64,000 nt of DNA. Origin: Lophium mytilinum. Taxonomy: Eukaryota > Ascomycota > Dothideomycetes > Mytilinidiales > Mytilinidiaceae. Of this stretch, positions 49,949-60,432 are shown one piece after another. The notes under the pieces were generated by a model, which was given only the letters and a program-made list of their open reading frames with translations, was not told the DNA's origin and did not search any database. The stretch lies in contig MU004181.1 in assembly GCA_010093605.1 (NCBI GenBank), positions 3,502,215 to 3,566,214 on the forward strand. Direction: 5' to 3'. The position numbers and the translations under genes are program-made. Numbering within the stretch: the stretch's first letter is position 1; each line of letters begins with the position of its first letter.

Positions 49949-51675
49949 CTACTCCACCTTCCTCACTGCATACTCTTGCTCGGGAATTCGATGCAGTCCT
50001 CCCGGCAAATGCTCTCCCTGCCTCTGCAATTTCAGCTTCTCCATCAGCTTGCCAATGGTCATGTAATCCTGGGGCTCCACGAAGCCGGTTGGCTGATGCT
50101 GGAAGAAGTTCATGACAAGCTCAAGAGCCCGTCGAGCGTCTTCTTGAGACGGTGAAACCGGTGAATTATTCTCCGGACTCATCGGAGACGAATGCTGTCT
50201 CTGCTGGCCGACTGGGAGCACAGCTGGTACGGGTGGAGGCTGCATTGAGCTAGTCACAATCTGTGCCTGCGAGGTTTGCATAGCGTCGTCCATGCCGCTC
50301 AGCGATTGCATCTCCGACAACGGAGATTCGAGGGCGGTGCTGCTGAGGAACTTCGGCGTCATTGGTTCTGATGATGGCGGTGGCGACATATACTGCTCCA
50401 CACCGACAAGCATCGGGAATGTCTGGCTTCGAGGTCGTTGGAAATTACTGCTTCCTGGTTGTCCTCTCGCCTGCTGTGAAGGCATAAATGGGCTTGGTCC
50501 ACACGCCGAGTCTGGAGTGAAGAACGGCGAAGTAGGGCTGGTAGGTCCTGCCGAGAAGGATGAAGGAGCAGTGTCAGTGAAAACACTCGAAAGAGACGTA
50601 GTACTCTGCGAATGGAACGGTCGATGGCCGTTCGTATAGTCAATGAAGCTGTCCGGGCTGTCCGTTTTTAGGTTCTCCTGGCTTTTCGAGGCTGACATGG
50701 TGAGAGGCGAAGGCGCCCCACTCGGCGATATTGGAGAGATGCCGCTGGGCGTCTGTGAGCTGGACGGTGGGTTCGAGTGACCTTCTGATTCTTCCGCTAT
50801 TGAGTTCTTTCGAGACTTCGCACCCATGAGATTGTTCTTCTGCTTGAATTTTTCGAGCCAGCTGGTACTGTTGGCCTTGAGGTGGCTGTCTGAGTTGCCG
50901 ACTGTCGTCGCAAAGAACCGCGCTTTCTCCCTTATCATGGCATCATTCAAAGGAAGGCCTTGCTTCTGGTGATTCCGGGCCCAGTTGGACAGGGCCCTTT
51001 CGATGTCTGGAAACTTGCCTTTGGATCTCTTCACAGGCGAGCGGCTGCCGTCGTCCTGGTAGAGGTATTTCTCCTTCTGCCGCAGGACTTTGGACACAGT
51101 ACTATACAGCACAATCAACAAATGCAACACCGTTAGATTAATAGTTCAAGTACCTTCTTTCGACACCGAACATAGCTGTCCTTCTGTCAGCTCGGACGAT
51201 TCTGCAAGATGCTTGGGCACTTACCTCCAATCTCTGTCTGCTTGACCGTTGGGTGCTCTTCATGATAGAGACACATTCGCCTCCGATCCGAGTCGGTCAG
51301 AGTCTTCCTTGGGGTCGAGGTGCTGTGCGAGCGGGTCGAGGTCGCTGACACAGGCGTCGCCGACGCAGGCGTGATGGGGACGGGCGCAGTGGGATACACT
51401 GGGGCGACATAGCTCGAGTTGCTCGTCAACATGCTCGGCCATTGAGGCATGATCAAGGGCTGCAGCTGCTGGTGCGTCGTCCTGGGCGGATGCATCTGGT
51501 GAGCTGAATACATGGGCTCCATGGGCAGCGGGGTGAAGGCGAAGCCATTGTACTCCTGGACGGGCGACTGATGCTGCGAGTGAGAGTAGGCATTGGAGTC
51601 GACCCATTGGGCATTGGGGTCGTGGTATCCAGGCTCCTGATGGTGTTGCTCGTGCTCCATACCCATCTGGCTCAT
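49949..51675 (-). CDS. CENP-B-type HTH DNA-binding regulator
   Basis: Exons 51675-51225, 51175-51154 (22 nt) and 51101-49949 give 541 residues. The N-terminus is Gln/His/Pro-rich. A pipsqueak-type HTH (TLTDSDRRRMCLYHEEHPTVKQ, continuing EIGAMFGVERSTVSKVLRQKEKYL across both introns) is followed by a CENPB-type DNA-binding domain (FPDIERALSNWARNHQKQGLPL, DAMIREKARFFATT, WLEKFKQKNNL). The micro-exon encodes exactly the turn AMFGVER, which fixes the splicing. The C-terminal half is Ser/Pro-rich with SP/TP phosphorylation motifs. There is no DDE transposase domain, so this is a domesticated regulator like fungal RfeD/Abp1-type proteins, not a transposase. Target genes unknown. Confidence 0.88.
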
Positions 51676-53279
51676 GTCGGCAGCAGGCTCAATGCAAGAT
51701 TGCGCGCGGTCGACCGTGCTATCTGGGAGTCCGTGTTTAGATGTCTGGCAATGGGGGTGGCAAGGCGGGCATTTGCGCCCAACGGTCGTGTGCCTGGACT
51801 AGAGGGAGCTCGTTGTCGGCAGCGTGCATGCATGCATGAGAAGGTGCTGTTCCTGACGAAGCGAAACGCACTGTACCACGCGGAGGGGGGGCAGGCGGAT
51901 GGGTGGGCGACACAAGGGGAAACGAAACGAGGCTCGGGCCCAGCTGGGGGCAACGACGTCCTTTTGCAGCACTGGCAGCACTTTGCAGCACTGGCGGGCA
52001 GCAGCAGGTGCGACGGCGGAGACTCTGGGAGTAGATGATGCAGGACGGCGGAGCGTAGCGGGCGGCGAGGTAGCTCTGGCGGGACGGGTGAAGCGGGAGG
52101 GACCGTAAGGTAGATGCGCAGCAAGAGGACCGTTTCGAGCTCCGCAAAAGCCCCGTTCTGCCCGTCGACGACGCCGTGAGCGAGCCGTGGGCGCCGCGGA
52201 CAGGGCTCTGCTGCTCGCATGGAGCTGGGGCTTGAGCAGCAGTAACGGCTCCGTCTGGGGGTGAGTGCACGGCGCCGATGGTGGCAGCTCGCACACGCCC
52301 TGGACAGCCAGGAAGCCGGCCTCGAGATGGGCCTCTCGCCGAAGCGACGCTGGGCACGGCGGCCACAGAAAGGCGGCCGCCAGTGGTGGAGCCAGCGCCA
52401 GCAGCGACAAATCGGGAGCCCAGGCGGATATGGTGGCACTCGGGGCCTGTCAAGCTGCTTGCACGGGGGCTCCACGGCTGCTCATCCTGCTCATCGCAGG
52501 CAGCTCAAGCCCAGGACCTGCTGGAACGGCATCCCCCAGCACGCACCACGGCCCCAGAGCGGCCGCCGTCCGACGTCCCTGGCCCGCCGGCTAAGGTCAC
52601 TTGGTACCCCAGCGGCATGCCCTGTCTGCCGTGCGCGCAGAGTGGCAGTCGTCGATAGTGCCATGGTGCGGTCGCGGCGCTGGGTGCTCGTCGCCAATGG
52701 GCGCCCTCACTGGTCAGGTACCGGAGCGCAGCCACGCCGCATGGCCAGGGCGTGGGAGGCATGCTGGAAGCGTGCTCTGCGTGTGGAGCGGCAGCGTGGG
52801 CGTGAGCGTGTTGGAGTCGTCGGGCTGTTGGGGCTGTTCCCAGGTTGGAGGAGCGCTGGAGGCATGTTGGAGCGGCGTCTGCGGGCTGAAACGCATGCCG
52901 ACATCGCTGCGTCTTGGCCGTCGAAGCCACCGAGACATTTTAGGTTTGAGCTTCAGACGGGGACTTCGGCAGCCACTCACACGCGCCTCCTCGGCGGAGT
53001 CGACAGGGAGGCACCTGGCGAGGCCCCATTTAGCGCTCCGTCACCACCAACGAGGCGCTGCGCCAGGGCCTGTCATCCTAACTCTCCGACGAAAACTGCC
53101 GCCTCCAGCCAATCAGTCGCGCAGACAGGGAAAAAGGGCGTGAAGGCGATCGACGCATTTTCTGCATTTCCGAAATAGCACGCGAAAAACAATAACGGGT
53201 GAGACCATCCCAATCGCACCGCTCACTTTTCGAGACACCCGCCCGCGTGGGCAATCAAGCTCCGTGCAAGCTTCACTGT
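51676..53279. other. GC-rich upstream region, no supported gene
   Basis: Very GC-rich, with overlapping frames on both strands (up to 305 codons at 52261-53178 plus). The frames are low-complexity Arg/Ala/Gly/Pro, have no domain, and overlap in at least four registers, so they are read as chance. The first few hundred bases are the promoter/leader of the CENP-B-type gene. The transposon starts at its right end. Confidence 0.5.
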
Positions 53280-53869
53280 ATTATAGCGGTTTTTCTCCCT
53301 TACACACCTCCGTGCTAACACCCCCCCGGATGAGGCCTAGCGGCCTCGCACGGGCGTAACGCCTATACAAATTGAGGTTAGCCGCGTATTTAGTGTACAA
53401 GGAATATAGCAAGAGGGTCCCTGTAGTTTAGCTAGCTAAATAGGGCAATATTAACGGGATTTTTAGCTAAGGTTCCGCGGCTAAAAAATTACTACCTAGA
53501 AATTATTTTTTTAAGGTTTTTTATAAATATAAGTAATAATAAGTTTAATAATAGGTTTCTACTACTCTAGGTAGCTTTAAATTAATAGGAAGCTTAACTC
53601 TATAAGGCTTAGTGTAGTGTTAGAGCCCTAGATAGGCATATACACTTCTAAATACCTAATTTTAAGTAGAATCTTAATAATATAGATAAGGAGGTTTACT
53701 ATTAAGAGACTTAGTAAGTATATATATAGTAGGGCTGCATAGCCTTACTATTAAGCTATTACAGCCTTTCTATTTTAATGCTGTAGCTAATAGTTTATTA
53801 GGTTCCGCCTGTATAAAATCTAATATTTAGCACCTATATTATTTAATATAGATAAAAAGATAAGGTTTA

Positions 53870-54690
53870 ATATATACTCCGCCACGCCCGAAAAAGTAAT
53901 ATATACTGTAGCTAAGCGCCTAGTATACCTAGAGAGGTACTACTTGCACATAATGCGCATGGGGCGCAGTAGATTCTAGATATTAGAGGTTTTTAATAGC
54001 TTAATTAAGCGGCTATATAATAAGTAGAAGGACCTACTATATTAAAGGCCTTAGCTTAATAAGTATATAACGCTTAAGAGGTATACTAGAGCCCTTAAGA
54101 GGTAGGGCTATAGTAGAGGTAGAGTATAGAGCTCTATAGATAGTACTTTTTTTAGGTTTTATAGGCCTAAGGATAGTTAATACTAGCTTACTATATACTC
54201 TAGATATTATAAAGGAAATAGACTAAAATATTAGTCTATTATAATACTAGATGGGCTCGCCTCTTATATCTTTCTATCCTTTCTAGCGCTAAGTAATAAT
54301 TAGAACATCTATTTATAGTTAGGAGTAATTAAGAGGCTCTAGAACCTCTTTATTAGTAGGCCCGTGTTGTATTTATATAGTAATAATGCGTACTAAGAGA
54401 GCTATAGATATATTCCTCTATAGAGCAATTAGAGAGGGTTTAGATAGTTAAGCTATAAGTAACTATAGTTAAATTATAAGCTTAGCAGCGCTAGAATTAT
54501 AGTAGAGAATACCTTTAGAAAGATTAAATAGCTATTTATATATAATTACCTTAAATAGAGCCTCTAGTATAGTAGCTAGCCGCTTACCGCATATTTTATA
54601 GTGTTAGTACTCTTCTATAATATTTTAACGTGCCTCTAGAGCATAGTAGATCTAATTATAAAGCGGTTTAATTATAAGCCGCTGTCTATA
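53870..54690 (+). pseudogene. Decayed DDE_Tnp_4 (Harbinger-type) transposase
   Basis: Read in one main frame, the plus strand shows the landmarks of the Harbinger transposase family in the right order, broken by TAG/TAA at positions where CAG/TGG/CAA-type codons would be expected: a helical start (ATPEKVIYTVAKRL), SSIDSTFFRFYRP where the family has a GxIDGT...RP motif, ILDGLAS (family PDGLxS), LYLYSNNAY (family YGDxAY, second Asp region, here changed to Asn), and SSARIIVENTFRKIK (family RxxVExxFGxxK, with the third acid Glu). The many stops mean it is dead. Motif assignment is by eye. Confidence 0.65.
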
Positions 54691-54899
54691 GAGAAGTATC
54701 TTAGTATAGGTATAGTAGAAGATAGGCCTAAGAATAAGGCTATAGAAAATAGGTAGTATGCAGGAAACGGGTTATATATAGAAAAATAGGTAGTATATAG
54801 AAAGTAGATAGTTTCTAGGCTATAGAATAGAATAGAAGTATTAAAATTACACTAGTATATACTAATAGCCTCTTAGTAATTTACTTAATTTAAACTCTA

Positions 54900-56200
54900 C
54901 TAATAAGAACGCATAGATTCTCGCTAAACCTGCTACTGCCTACTATTACCTAAACCTTATTCTTGCACCTGCCTAGCTTAGCAGCTACTAATTAGTTAGA
55001 TTCTCTTATTAAGGCTCTTTTAATATACTTAAACCTAACCTTCTATACTAACCTACTACCCGTTCTATCTACCTCTACGCTTTAATAGCTGCCTTATTAT
55101 CGCCTATAGGTTATTATTTACCTTCTACTACTTAGTACGGTCCTTCTATATCTTCTAGTAAAGTCCTGCAATATTGGCCGGCCTAGAAACTATCCTCTTA
55201 TAAAGTTTAAGCTTACGGCGCCTTATTTCTAGTTCCTTCTTTCTCTCTTTATATTAGATAGCCTCTTAAGACGCTATAGCATTAAAATAGTAGTTAAATA
55301 GCTAGTTTATAGCCTCTATAGAATACTAAGTATCTACTACAGCTTAATAGTAAGAAGTATCTAGGTTTATACTAGTATATAGCACTATACGTCTCTCTCT
55401 ATTCTCTTTCTCTTCTCTCTTCCTCTTTACCACGCGCTAGAGGCAGCTAATAGCTACCTTATTCTTCTCTTTCTTCTTTCTATTAAGCTCCTCCGTTAAT
55501 TTCTTTTTATCTAAAGCCTTCTTATTTACTATAGTAATAATATTATTAACTCGCGCATTAAATTAATCCGGATTCTTACGCCCCGTGCCCTTATTCCGGC
55601 CTATAAGATAGGCCTCTTAGTAGCCTATCTAGCTCTTAAGAATCTTTAGGCTGCCGTTCTTATATATACTGTTCTTGGCGCTAAAGATTATTTAATAGAG
55701 ATAGGACAGTTTAAAACCTAGTTTCTTTTTATACTTAATTATTATATTCTTATAAAATAACTTATTTAAAGTAGCCTTTATATATAACTCTTTGCGGGCA
55801 ATAAAGAGAGTAGCTATATTAAGCTAGAGGCCTTTATTCTATTCTATAGACTTACTATGCGTCTTCTACTTACCTCTACTATTTATATAGAACTTATAAA
55901 TTTTACTAGTAATTAGGGCAACGTTCTTATCTATAGGTGCCTTAGTGGCCTTCCTAGAGGCTACTTATTTCTTTAGCGCTACTATTTTAGTAGGGGTAGA
56001 AGAAGGTATATTCTTCTTATTATTCTCCTTATTATTATTATTATCTATTATTATAGGCTTATTCTCTCTATTTTTCTTAGCCTTGCTATTATCCTCTATA
56101 GCCTTCCTATTCTTCTTTCTCTTCCTCCGTGGTGTAGCCTTTCCTTTACCCTTTAGCGCGGCTACTTCCGTAGCTTAAGGCGCGCCTAGTTCTATAGCCT
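54900..56200 (-). pseudogene. Second decayed gene of the transposon, opposite strand
   Basis: The minus strand has a long, mostly open register broken by few TAG/TAA codons. It encodes a Lys/Asn/Glu-rich stretch, then blocks such as KFYINSRGKQKTHSK, QLNIATLFIARKELYIKATL and GRNKGTGRKNPD, and ends with a basic coiled-coil-like region (LDKKKLTEELNRKKKEKNK). I do not recognise it. Harbinger elements commonly carry a second, DNA-binding protein; this could be that protein, although no Myb/SANT repeat is visible. Exact limits are uncertain. Confidence 0.4.
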
Positions 56201-56542
56201 GCGGCGCGCGCGGTTCTATAATTAAAACCGGCGGCAATAAAGCTATTATAATAGGCGGCTGTAAGGGTGTTAATATAGTAGTTAACTATAGAATATACTA
56301 AAGAGAAACTAGATAAGTTTAATACATCTTATAATACAGCGGCAGTATTAGAGCTAGTAAGCTCGCAAGTATTAAAGTAATAGGCGATAAAGCAATTATA
56401 TATACTTTTAGCTAACTATTATTATAGTATAGTTGCAGCGCGTACTACTATTACCTCTATAGAGAACTTAAATTCTATAGCGCAATGTTATATATATTAT
56501 AATACTTATAGCCCGTGCTATTATAGAGTAGAGGGGGCCTAC

Positions 56543-56626
56543 AGGCCTAAGGCTAAGAAGGCTTATAGGCCTAAGGTTAAGGAGGCCTATAGGCCTAAGG
56601 CTAAGGAGGCTTACGGGCCTAAGGTT
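56543..56626 (+). repeat. 24-bp tandem repeat inside the transposon
   Basis: Three and a half units of AGGCCTAAGGCTAAGGAGGC plus TTAT. In the plus-strand frame each unit encodes eight residues (RPKAKEAY), a Lys-rich repeat, so it was probably part of a coding region. Units differ mainly by C/T changes. Confidence 0.8.
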
Positions 56627-56896
56627 ATTAGCTAAAAGGTGCAGGAGAATTATATACCGGCCGCGTAAGATAGAGAGGGGGTAATTAGGTATCTATAGGT
56701 ATATACGGGTTATACCCTATATATAGTAGCTAGTTTAGATTATTTAAATTACTATAATAACTTATACTAATAAAACTATAGGTATAAATTAGAATAGTAT
56801 ACGCAACGCGTTAATACGCGATACATCTAATGTTAATTCTACCTATACGCTAAGCTACTACACCCTCCTTCTAAACCTTATACGGCGATTATTAAG

Positions 56897-56935
56897 GTGT
56901 AGTAAGTACTACACTAAGTGTAGTGCTTACTACAC
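56897..56935. repeat. Near-perfect 39-bp palindrome near the transposon right end
   Basis: GTGTAGTAAGTACTACACT, one central A, then its complement with a single mismatch (18 of 19 pairs). It lies about 170 bp inside the right end. It could be a subterminal transposase-binding site or a relic of two facing arms. Shorter versions of ACTACAC occur next to it. Confidence 0.8.
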
Positions 56936-57111
56936 TCCACACTGTTTATAAAGGAATTGTGTAAGCCATCTTATTTCCGTACTAACGCGTTAAATTAGTG
57001 GCGTACAGGGGCCTCAACACCAACCTTTCCTCTCACGGGCGCGCTAGGCCGTGCGGGGCCGTGCGGGAGGTGTGGCAGCGGAGGTGTGTGAGGGAGAAAA
57101 ACCGCTATATT

Positions 57112-57464
57112 TCCTATTGCGGCCGATGCTGCCCGTTTGCTAGCTGATCGAGCAAGGCCGTTGCCCGTATCGTGCGGGAGCGACGGCGCAGCCAGAGAGC
57201 TGCCCCAGAGCCGATCCGCGTGGACGCTACGCCGGCCGGAATGAGCGTGCTGGTGCGGATGCAAATGCCATTGGTGCCGCCGCGGACCACTCCTCCACCT
57301 TTGCTTGCAAGTGCCAGGGGTCCTCGAGATTCGAGCTCCCTCGTGACGCAGTTGGGGACTGATACGAGAATGAGACACTCGATAGCATCCTTCACGTCCG
57401 TCCATCGCGCCACTAGCAAATCGTCCTTTTGGCAGGCCGCGATGGGTGCCGCGAGTCGCGCTCT
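57112..57464. other. 3' flank of RBG1, no gene
   Basis: GC-rich sequence between the transposon and the stop codon of RBG1. Open frames here on both strands have no motif. It probably holds the RBG1 3' UTR. Confidence 0.5.
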
Positions 57465-59112
57465 TCAGCGTTTGACGATCGTTACTGGTTGCGCCTGCCG
57501 TTAGCCAAGAGATAGACCGAGATAGCCTGCGTTGGTGTTGCACTTACTGATGTCCTCGTCCGCAAGCTCATGGGCCAGTCCCACGCGCTGCGGCTGGTGC
57601 TTGACCGACTTGCCGTACACTATTGCGTGCTTGAACGTATCGAGGATCGTCTTGTGGATCGAATTACACTGCAGATGTCAGTCAATACTCCTAATTCTTC
57701 CCGGACCGAGGGAAACTAACAAAGTCCTCCACCGTGCAAGCCGTAGACCGCAGCACCACTGGAGCAGTGTAGTCGGGCATCTTCCCCTTGGGCTTCGTAT
57801 AGATCCGGCGCAGCGTCAGCTTCTCCCACATCTGCTCCATCAATTCGTCGACGTTCCACCCGTGCTCCGAGCTGATCGGGCAGGCATTCGGGATGCGGTA
57901 TAGCAAGTCGAGCTCCTCGATAGAGATTGCGTCGATTTTGTTTAGCGCATAGATCACGGGAATGTAGCTTCTGCTTTTGGCCTCGAGAACATCGATCAAA
58001 TCGTCGACCGTCGCATCACAACGAATCGCTATGTCGGCGGACCCAATTCGATACTCGGACATGACCGCTTTGATCTCCTAGAAGACATGTTAGATTGGCC
58101 ATGGGTCCATGGGAGGGAGACAAGACGAATGGCACCCACGTCATGGCCGATATGTGTCAGCTGTACAGTGCTGGTGATGTTGATACCGCCCTTGTCCTTC
58201 TTTCTGAAGTGGATGTTGGGAGGCTGCTTGTTGATCCTGATCCCAAAGCCTTCCAGTTCGGCCTCGATGACGCGCTTGTCGGTAAGTGGTTTGTTGACGT
58301 CCAGCACGATGAAGATCAGATTGCACGTCTTTGCGACTGCGATAACCTGTCGACCACGACCTTTGCCGTCCTTTGCACCCTGGATGATACCGGGAAGATC
58401 GAGCATCTGGATCTTGGCACCATTATATAGGACCTGGCCTGGCACGGTCGTGAGCTATACAATCGTCAGTGGTAGTAACTTGGGGGTCGTGATGGATGCG
58501 GTACAGTTGTGAACTCGTACGCAGCAGCTACAGTCTGTTAGCATGTTTGGGTGAACAGTTTGCGAGCGTGACGCAAACTTACCTTCCGAGTGTTGACCGG
58601 TCAATCTGCTCATCAACGTACTCTTTCCCACAGAGGGGAATCCGATAAACCCACTAGCCTCAGGTCAGCCTGATTCGAAACAGCAAAGCTCATGCTAGGT
58701 AGACATACACGCTGGCAACGCCGGTTCTTGCGACATCGAAGCCAACTGTATAATTCGTGAGACACAGCTCTTGTCCGGACCAGAAGCCGCAACATACCGC
58801 CAGCTCCTCCTCCGCTAGACGTCGGGGTCAGCAGTTCGCGTTTGAGCTTCGCCAGCTTTGCCTTGAGCATTCCTGTTTCTCAACTTAGATCGTGGCCGAC
58901 GGAGACTCGGGGAGTATGGCGTACCAAGATGGAAAGAGGTCGCCTTGTTCTTTTGCGTCTTGGCCATCTAAATCGGGGTCAAACGGGGGTTCCAGCGGGG
59001 ATTTGGAAGAGCTCACTTCGGCCTCGATATCCTTGATCTGTCGGACGGCATATTAGTGATGGAGTGCAAGCATTGGCTCGAGGCATCGTACCTTATCCAC
59101 GGTGGTCGACAT
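57465..59112 (-). CDS. RBG1: DRG-family GTPase Rbg1
   Basis: Translation-associated GTPase (human DRG1). Eleven exons: 59112-59092, 59037-59017, 58967-58925, 58872-58798, 58745-58709, 58653-58583, 58527-58505, 58454-58140, 58077-57721, 57668-57548 and 57484-57465, giving 367 residues (yeast 369). [24 protein letters not shown] and [16 protein letters not shown] form the N-terminal helix; G1 is GFPSVGKS at about 70-77, G3 is DLPG in [19 protein letters not shown], and G4 is NKID. A TGS domain ends with the usual [14 protein letters not shown]. Four exons are only 20-23 nt. Every join is in phase, which makes this one of the most securely spliced genes here. It normally acts on ribosomes with partner Tma46. 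Confidence 0.95.
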
Positions 59113-59630
59113 GTTGAAGGATTGGGGACACTGAGCTCAGCGGCGTGCTGTATGTGTAGTGGTCTCTCGTCCGGTCGAGATTGTAAGTTTGAAGGCGGTT
59201 TCTTGGTGATAGGCCTGGCATTTTTTGAGGCGGAAGTGACGCTGGATGGCGGGGCTCCGGAGAAACAAGGCCCCGGCGAGGCTGAGATTTACGACCACGT
59301 CGAGGCTATTCACGGAGCCCGCCCGATGCCAACCGTGAGAATGCACATCGGAGGGGAAGCTTGGAATGCTAGGCATGACACAACCACCGCGTTTGATGCA
59401 GATACCTCCGGGCTTGGTGTCACGTATCCTTAGAACACCATCATTACTGTCGCGGTTCCGGTGCTCGCCATCGCTATTGTCTGACATCGAACTCCGCTAG
59501 ACCAACGTGGCTTGTTCGCGCTTTGTTCCTTTGTATAAAGCCAATACCATACGCTGCATAACTCGCCGCCTATCTTCCCACCAAACTCAATTCAAACAAC
59601 GTGTTCATTCCATCCATCCATCCATCCATC
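59113..59630. promoter_or_regulatory. Divergent promoter of RBG1 (-) and cysteine dioxygenase (+)
   Basis: A 518-bp region without a gene. A CCATCCATCCAT microsatellite (59610-59630) directly precedes the dioxygenase ATG and belongs to its leader. No TATA box is clear. Confidence 0.55.
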
Positions 59631-60432
59631 ATGCCAGCCCTTGCGAGAGACGTTCTGTTCGGCCCAACCTCGAGCCCTGCTAAGCAACCCGATAACTTCC
59701 ATGCCCTCGTGCATAAGCTCAGTAAAGTTCTGGGGCCCAGCTCCGGCATCGACTCTCAAGACGTCGACCCTCAGCAACTCCAGACGCTGATGGAGGAGTA
59801 CGTGTCCAATCCATCAGAGTGGGAAGATTACGCTCTGGGCGATTTGTCGAGGCCATACACAAGAAACCTTGTAGATCGAGGGAATGGGAAGAGCAATCTG
59901 GCACGTCTCTAGTGAACGTCTTACGGAAGCTTGCTGACCCACTTAGCTCATCCTAGTTTGGACGCCAGGCAAAGGCAGTCCCATTCACGAGTAAGTATAA
60001 CTGTCAAATAACTACCAAAGTCTCTGCTAACAGTGTCTAAGCCATGCAAACGCCCACTGCATCATGAAGGTCCTAAAAGGGCGTCTCCAAGAAACTCTTT
60101 TCGACTGGCCGGACAAGCTTGCCCTCAACAACGGCCAACCCTCACCCCTAAACGTCAAAAGGGATACCATCTACCGAGAGAACGAAGTCACATACATGTC
60201 AGACACGCTCGGCCTACACAAGGTCCGCAATCCGGATCCAAATGAGATTGCAGTCTCACTACATCGTAGGCATTTGAACTTTGATTGATGCATACAGCAT
60301 GCTAACAGTGATTTAGTGTACACACCTCCCAATGCTGCGGTTTACGGATGCCATACTTTCGATCCCAGTACGGGTTCCGCCGTCCATGTCAAGCAATGCA
60401 ATTTCTTTTCTGATCGAGGACAGAGGATCTGA
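59631..60432 (+). CDS. Cysteine dioxygenase
   Basis: Iron enzyme of the cupin family that oxidises cysteine to cysteine sulfinate, controlling sulfur-amino-acid level. Exons 59631-59900, 59947-59990, 60042-60265 and 60317-60432 give 217 residues. The three iron-binding histidines are His104 and His106 (PIHDHANAHC) and His164 (GLHKVRNP). Cys111 and Tyr181 sit where the Cys-Tyr crosslink forms in the mammalian enzyme, and His179 matches the HLY motif. The first intron begins GC rather than GT (CTG|GCACGT); no GT donor gives a working frame, and the join [13 protein letters not shown] is family-typical. The other introns are canonical. Confidence 0.93.

Follow-up and report, generated by a model that had tools for sequence, protein, structure and literature searches.

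A RIP-decayed Pangu-group transposon of Lophium mytilinum, and a possible joint exchange of its partner domain and end motifs

We analysed a stretch of 64,000 nucleotides from the ascomycete Lophium mytilinum (assembly GCA_010093605.1, contig MU004181.1, positions 3,502,215 to 3,566,214 of the forward strand), called here the window, in which an earlier note made from the letters alone had described a decayed Harbinger-type transposon at 53283-57108. The explanation that best fits the whole of our results, with a probability of about 0.7, is that of a Pangu-group transposon in which the central domain of a partner protein and the sites at the element ends were exchanged together. The element has inverted ends, ANT target-site duplications, a DDE transposase gene and a second, convergent gene on which selection has acted; it carries the marks of repeat-induced point mutation (RIP) and exists as two subfamilies. 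It is very probable that this is a PHIS element with two genes and ANT duplications, decayed by RIP.

The element, its ends and its copies

The features of the window copy are as follows (positions in the window; limits of the two decayed genes are approximate).

53280-53282: target-site duplication ATT, left; same 3 bp at both element ends
53283-57108: whole element, 3826 bp, subfamily A, RIP-decayed; based on inverted repeat, RIP indices and other copies
53283-53299, plus: outer 17 bp of left terminal inverted repeat; fixed transversions between subfamilies at 0/17 sites
53300-53329, plus: inner left inverted repeat, subfamily-specific; fixed transversions at 11/29 comparable sites
53656-54882, plus: transposase gene, 409 codons read; based on PF13359 and transversion Ka/Ks
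54136-54621, plus: DDE_Tnp_4 catalytic domain; IDST, second acidic site reading SNN, E of VENTF
54969-56900, minus: partner gene, 644 codons read; based on transversion Ka/Ks, indels and composition
55623-55917, minus: central block of partner, residues ~329-427 (~99 codons), proposed end-binding domain; fixed transversions at 46/295 sites
56881-56945: right subterminal block, subfamily-specific; fixed transversions at 16/61 sites, loose alignment with two 4-bp indels
57036-57091, minus: inner right inverted repeat, subfamily-specific; fixed transversions at 12/55 sites
57092-57108, minus: outer 17 bp of right terminal inverted repeat; fixed transversions at 0/17 sites
57109-57111: target-site duplication ATT, right; directly outside the element end

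The inverted ends and the 3-bp ATT flanks reported in the earlier note were both recovered. The 18-mer ATAGCGGTTTTTCTCCCT lies in inverted orientation at the two ends, within a terminal inverted repeat of 45 nt that is 84% complementary and whose outer 17 bp are identical at both ends. In the 43.18-Mb genome (24 contigs), this 18-mer was found 9 times, against 0 for a reversed control pattern. The same ends are carried by other copies: the search of the assembly gave at least six, on C1 (the window copy), C19, C6, C11, C14 and C8, and such copy counts are lower bounds. Two miniatures were also detected, one of 0.5 kb on C13 and one on C21 without the outer left end. An Rfam search of 50000-60000 gave no match.

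At all seven complete pairs of ends, the left flanking triplet was identical to the right one, and every triplet fitted ANT (ATT, AAT, AAT, AGT, AAT, ACT, AAT). None was TWA (TTA or TAA), and a canonical TWA Harbinger was rejected for this reason. A TA duplication, as found in Fot1-like elements, was rejected as well, since the triplets differ among copies in their middle base, which nevertheless is the same on the left and on the right. The ANT duplication marks Pangu, as described in PMC4482050, a group named Harbinger2 in Repbase according to PMC12730594. On the basis of these seven pairs of ends, the window element is placed in the Pangu group. The Harbinger-type assignment of the earlier note is therefore right at the level of the superfamily, but does not extend to canonical PIF/Harbinger.

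Copies were read one by one, not as a family consensus. Similarity to the window copy was 93% for C19, 86% for C6 and C11, and 85-88% for C14 and C8. They fall into subfamily A (C1 and C19) and subfamily B (C6, C11, C14 and C8), separated by 147 fixed transversions in 3790 comparable sites; the C13 miniature is A-type as well. The C14 and C8 copies are each split by an insert with direct repeats of 203-233 bp, about 90.6% alike (C14:1458844-1467338, ∼8.5 kb, and C8:1240569-1247777, ∼7.2 kb). From an inspection that covered the ends and a 5-kb part of one insert, these are probably long terminal repeat retrotransposons. Matches of about 70 bp to 54749-54819 at nine other loci were discarded as copies: they correspond to an 18-bp minisatellite (unit like GGTAGTATATAGAAAATA) inside another, dispersed repeat, seen in the nine loci inspected.

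RIP decay and the transposase gene

The AT-rich, RIP-like decay noted earlier was verified with the two RIP indices that had been proposed as a check, and neither is at background. TpA/ApT was 1.84 inside the element compared to 0.71 in the remainder of the window, and (CpA+TpG)/(ApC+GpT) was 0.37 compared to 1.23. Transitions made up 248 of the 252 differences between the full-length copies C1 and C19, and all 209 differences between C6 and C11; a few transversions were seen in the left parts of C14 and C8, which are short (e.g. 4 among 23 differences for C6 versus C8). At each end, the outermost 100 bp (53283-53382 and 57009-57108, and likewise in all six copies) largely escaped RIP, with 7-13 CpA+TpG per 100 bp, versus 1.6-2.7 inside. 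As RIP makes no transversions, those fixed between A and B can be used to look behind it. We measured the ratio of nonsynonymous to synonymous changes (Ka/Ks) on transversions only, with codons taken as they stand and TAA/TAG counted as glutamine.

The plus-strand Harbinger transposase announced in the earlier note was found in each copy individually, and none of the three outcomes that this note had listed as refuting was encountered. Reading through TAA and TAG in the frame starting at 53284, PF13359 (DDE_Tnp_4) matched with an E value of 1.5e-16 over model positions 1-157 of 158; in the 409-codon reading, the match covered residues 161-322 (E 5e-16), and among the six copies, all of which matched, the best E was 6.7e-17. 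Transversion Ka/Ks was 0.17 in the expected plus frame, versus 0.50-3.72 in the other five, and 23 of the 1227 sites carried fixed A/B transversions. Concerning the catalytic landmarks, we take IDST, a second D and the E of VENTF to be the acidic sites of the transposase. Acidic residues can be seen in IDST and VENTF, both listed in the earlier note; at the second acidic site, all six copies have SNN. One N of this SNN may formerly have been an aspartate, which RIP of the Asp codon would explain. A PDB profile search with the transposase gave 0 matches at E up to 0.1. The window transposase also has a weak match, with 29% identity and an E value of 2.9e-4, in a further AT-rich, RIP-like sequence at C3:2582060-2582794.

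The minus-strand partner gene

The second gene, which we call the partner, would encode a P/Q-rich repeat region, a K/R-rich region, the central block and a charged C-terminal part. One may ask whether this reading frame is a gene at all, or a by-product of the composition left by RIP. Counting stops or TGA to choose the frame was abandoned as uninformative: TGA is missing from all six frames, so that its lack in the partner frame says nothing, and TAA/TAG are even fewer in one plus frame (43) than among the 644 codons of the proposed frame (53). Transversions give another picture. Over 54969-56900, Ka/Ks was 0.42 in the minus-strand partner frame, versus 0.72-2.98 in the other five, and the transversions were distributed 26/16/40 over the three codon positions. 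Indels between A and B sum to 6, 24 and 24 bp within the partner (one of the 24 being aligned as 2+20+2), whereas outside the genes they are of 1 or 4 bp; a 24-bp indel also separates C1 from C19 within the partner. A frame produced by composition is thus very improbable. Because transversions, which RIP cannot make, reveal selection on the minus-strand frame, we conclude that the second gene is real and was under selection, and this test supports the decayed minus-strand gene of the earlier note as coding. The transversion-only frame test could be used for coding constraint in other RIP-destroyed repeats, where stop counts mislead.

Two subfamilies differing in the partner block and in the inner ends

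The fixed transversions between A and B crowd in four blocks: the inner left end, the central block of the partner, the right subterminal block (which holds a 19-nt palindrome at 56897-56935) and the inner right end. They occupy 16-38% of the sites there, with the counts listed above, versus 0-3.5% elsewhere, and 1.1% and 2.1% in the partner sequences flanking the central block. Within the interior (53483-56882), 0 of 2000 shuffles matched this clustering. The end blocks were delimited once the alignment had been viewed, and a best fit served to place the limits of the partner block.

Protein identity between A and B was 57-59% in the partner block, compared to 70-89% in the remaining partner. 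Third positions differed at 24 of 99 codons in the block and at 16 of 538 in the remainder, and transversion Ka/Ks of the block was 0.37. Given this raised third-position divergence together with such a ratio, the block looks like it was replaced by a diverged but functional version, and not freed from selection. As synonymous and amino-acid divergence are raised alike, the replacement would have come from a diverged relative, and not from fast adaptation.

The inner ends differ in their motifs. In the window copy, CACACCTCC lies at 53303-53311 on the left and at 57080-57088 and 57066-57074 on the right; counted from the ends, it starts at base 21 on the left and at bases 21 and 35 on the right in the three A-type elements (C1, C19 and the C13 miniature). 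The four B-type copies have CCCACAC at left bases 15, 21 and 35 and at right base 21, with one or two further occurrences at right 33 and/or 44. In shuffles of the end stretches, with 10000 trials for each motif, none reached the observed number of CCCACAC in C6, and one did so for CACACC, the core of the A motif, in C19; these figures are descriptive, the motifs having been picked after viewing.

The partner domain and the inner-end motif changed together, while hardly any change affected the transposase and the outer 17 bp. We think it rather likely, as the simplest account, that the partner domain reads the inner-end motif, on a correlation observed in one pair of subfamilies. A chance mosaic would produce the same four blocks, if a recombinant had received foreign ends and a foreign partner segment that are functionally unlinked. 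Recombination yields mosaics anyway, and the raised synonymous divergence of the block is what a foreign segment would bring. However, both inner ends changed, yet a motif still starts at base 21; moreover the transposase and the outer ends are hardly altered, and chance would need several breakpoints placed in just this way. We consider such a mosaic unlikely.

Several observations weigh against a joint exchange in a Pangu element. The co-divergence comes from one subfamily pair, hence from one event without replication, and block limits as well as motifs were chosen after viewing the alignment. The right subterminal block aligns loosely. CACACC is found in B copies too, at left 17 in all four and at right 46 in three of them, so the A and B end motifs are not cleanly distinct. 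Neither of the longer motifs was seen within the interior of any copy, an absence of little weight because RIP strips CpA there. Attempts to assign the partner block to a family or fold with Pfam, PDB and hhalign gave none. The search for a paralogous empty site with seven joined flanks returned only the elements' own flanks (14 of 14 matches). Finally, the inverted repeat of the window element starts with AT, while those of Pangu, 11-40 bp long in PMC4482050, usually start with AG or GG; as that paper gives these letters as the usual start, we do not regard the difference as decisive for membership.

Is the partner a disguised Myb or MADF protein?

The whole partner was compared to Pfam in all six copies, and 0 families were found at E up to 5. 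When the threshold was set to E 10 for the central block, hits to three unrelated families appeared in 2, 1 and 1 of the six copies (best E 0.012). PDB profile searches gave 0 matches for the whole partner at E up to 1, and one for the block, at chance level (E 1.5). Elsewhere in the genome, a search at E up to 0.01 retrieved the six family copies only.

A partner without an obvious Myb/SANT domain had been pointed out before, and indeed no Myb family was matched in any of the six copies at the E values given above. RIP could nevertheless have made an ordinary Myb/SANT or MADF protein unrecognisable. Such a protein would be compatible with end binding; elements of the superfamily usually have a partner of this kind, according to the discussion of PMC4482050 and to PMC9710019, and in our reading the partner block has K/R-rich, helix-like stretches. 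As a control, a real Myb frame from the same genome was submitted to simulated RIP decay. All 8 decayed versions still retrieved PF12776, with E values from 2.6e-5 to 0.21, although only one of the 8 was above the curated cut-off; the control covered Myb only. In addition, a genome-wide PF12776 search led to a single place, in another element on C6 (see below), and hhalign to this C6 Myb gave a probability of 0.2%. Since the simulated decayed frames still matched, a Myb as typical as the control would probably have been noticed, but a more diverged one might not. We therefore keep the hidden Myb or MADF as a lesser possibility.

A possible mechanism

Returning to a joint exchange in a Pangu element, the following scenario can be proposed. 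A cut-and-paste transposon would insert at an ANT site. Its transposase would cut at the invariant outer 17 bp, and the partner would bind, by its central domain of ∼99 residues, the motif that starts at base 21 and recurs near base 35. The bound partner would bring the transposase to the ends, like the ORF1/Myb proteins of Harbinger3_DR and Ping. As subfamilies A and B separated or recombined, the domain and its sites would have been exchanged jointly, with outer ends and transposase kept. RIP would then destroy the element along with its sister copies. According to PMC2836001, ORF1 of Harbinger3_DR both binds to the element ends and interacts with its transposase; end binding is supported for Ping, ORF1 is required for transposition in both systems, and a 9-bp subterminal motif is named in PMC9710019 (PMC2836001, PMC9710019). 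The most specific version, in which a non-Myb domain of ∼99 residues reads a 7-9-nt motif at bases 21 and ∼35, domain and sites forming a specificity cassette, is tentative.

If this is true, a lineage could come to recognise different ends and yet retain both its transposase and the outermost 17 bp. The paired change of partner block and inner ends also predicts, concretely and in a way that can be tested, the residues and the bases that bind each other in a Pangu element. We found no description of such a paired exchange in the open-licence literature searched, which is weak evidence of novelty.

Other elements and a neighbouring reading frame

The C6 element mentioned above (C6:1063496-1067715) is a canonical Harbinger with a TTA duplication, long inverted repeats with ends GGGCCAGTTCGG and little RIP signal. 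It has a Myb_DNA-bind_3 (PF12776) gene on the plus strand and a DDE_Tnp_4 gene on the minus strand, in convergent orientation; its transposase match contains 5 in-frame stops.

A second RIP-decayed, ANT-type family has ends AGACGGATTTC and was found on C5, C2, C18, C19 (44566) and C8 (1794192). Its length is 4014 bp in two copies, and the five copies are 91-94% alike over the stretches compared. The two completed copies have duplications ACT and ATT, i.e. ANT in both; of the three copies for which a single end was seen, one has a left flank that fits ANT and two (C2 and C8) do not. It resembles the window family by its ANT duplication, its RIP decay and its PF13359 match, but is too diverged to be found by a search with the window transposase at E up to 0.01. 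In blastp comparisons of read-through frames between the two families, shared composition dominated and a non-coding pair of frames came out on top.

Next to the element, a minus-strand frame (49949-51145) encodes a Tc5/CENP-B-type helix-turn-helix domain (PF03221, E 2e-17). This frame, uninterrupted for 398 codons, shows no RIP decay, and its product could be a host CENP-B-like protein.

Comparison with known systems

The window element shares with canonical PIF/Harbinger elements (Harbinger3_DR, Ping/Pong) the two-gene design and the transposase family. It differs from them by its duplication, ANT and not TWA, and by a partner in which no Myb is detectable, whereas theirs is of Myb/SANT type. 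The convergent layout with such a partner had been called unusual in the earlier note, an opinion that we do not retain. The layout is not new, as the TTA/Myb Harbinger on C6 is convergent as well; concerning gene orientation in fish Harbingers, a word search of PMC9179366 gave nothing. Nor is a partner without a recognised Myb new, since the results of Han et al. 2015 (PMC4482050) report a second Pangu open reading frame without known motif. The discussion of the same paper, in conflict with its results text, counts Pangu with those groups whose partner is a Myb/SANT protein.

Compared to Pangu as described in PMC4482050, the six window-family copies found are all RIP-decayed, and the family has two subfamilies with differing end motifs and partner blocks, a situation that we did not see described in PMC4482050. 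The size of the window element, 3826 bp, compares with an average of 3487 bp for autonomous Pangu elements, which were found in two ascomycetes among others (PMC4482050). The 3-bp ANT duplication, the DDE transposase and the second open reading frame without known motif are common to both (PMC4482050).

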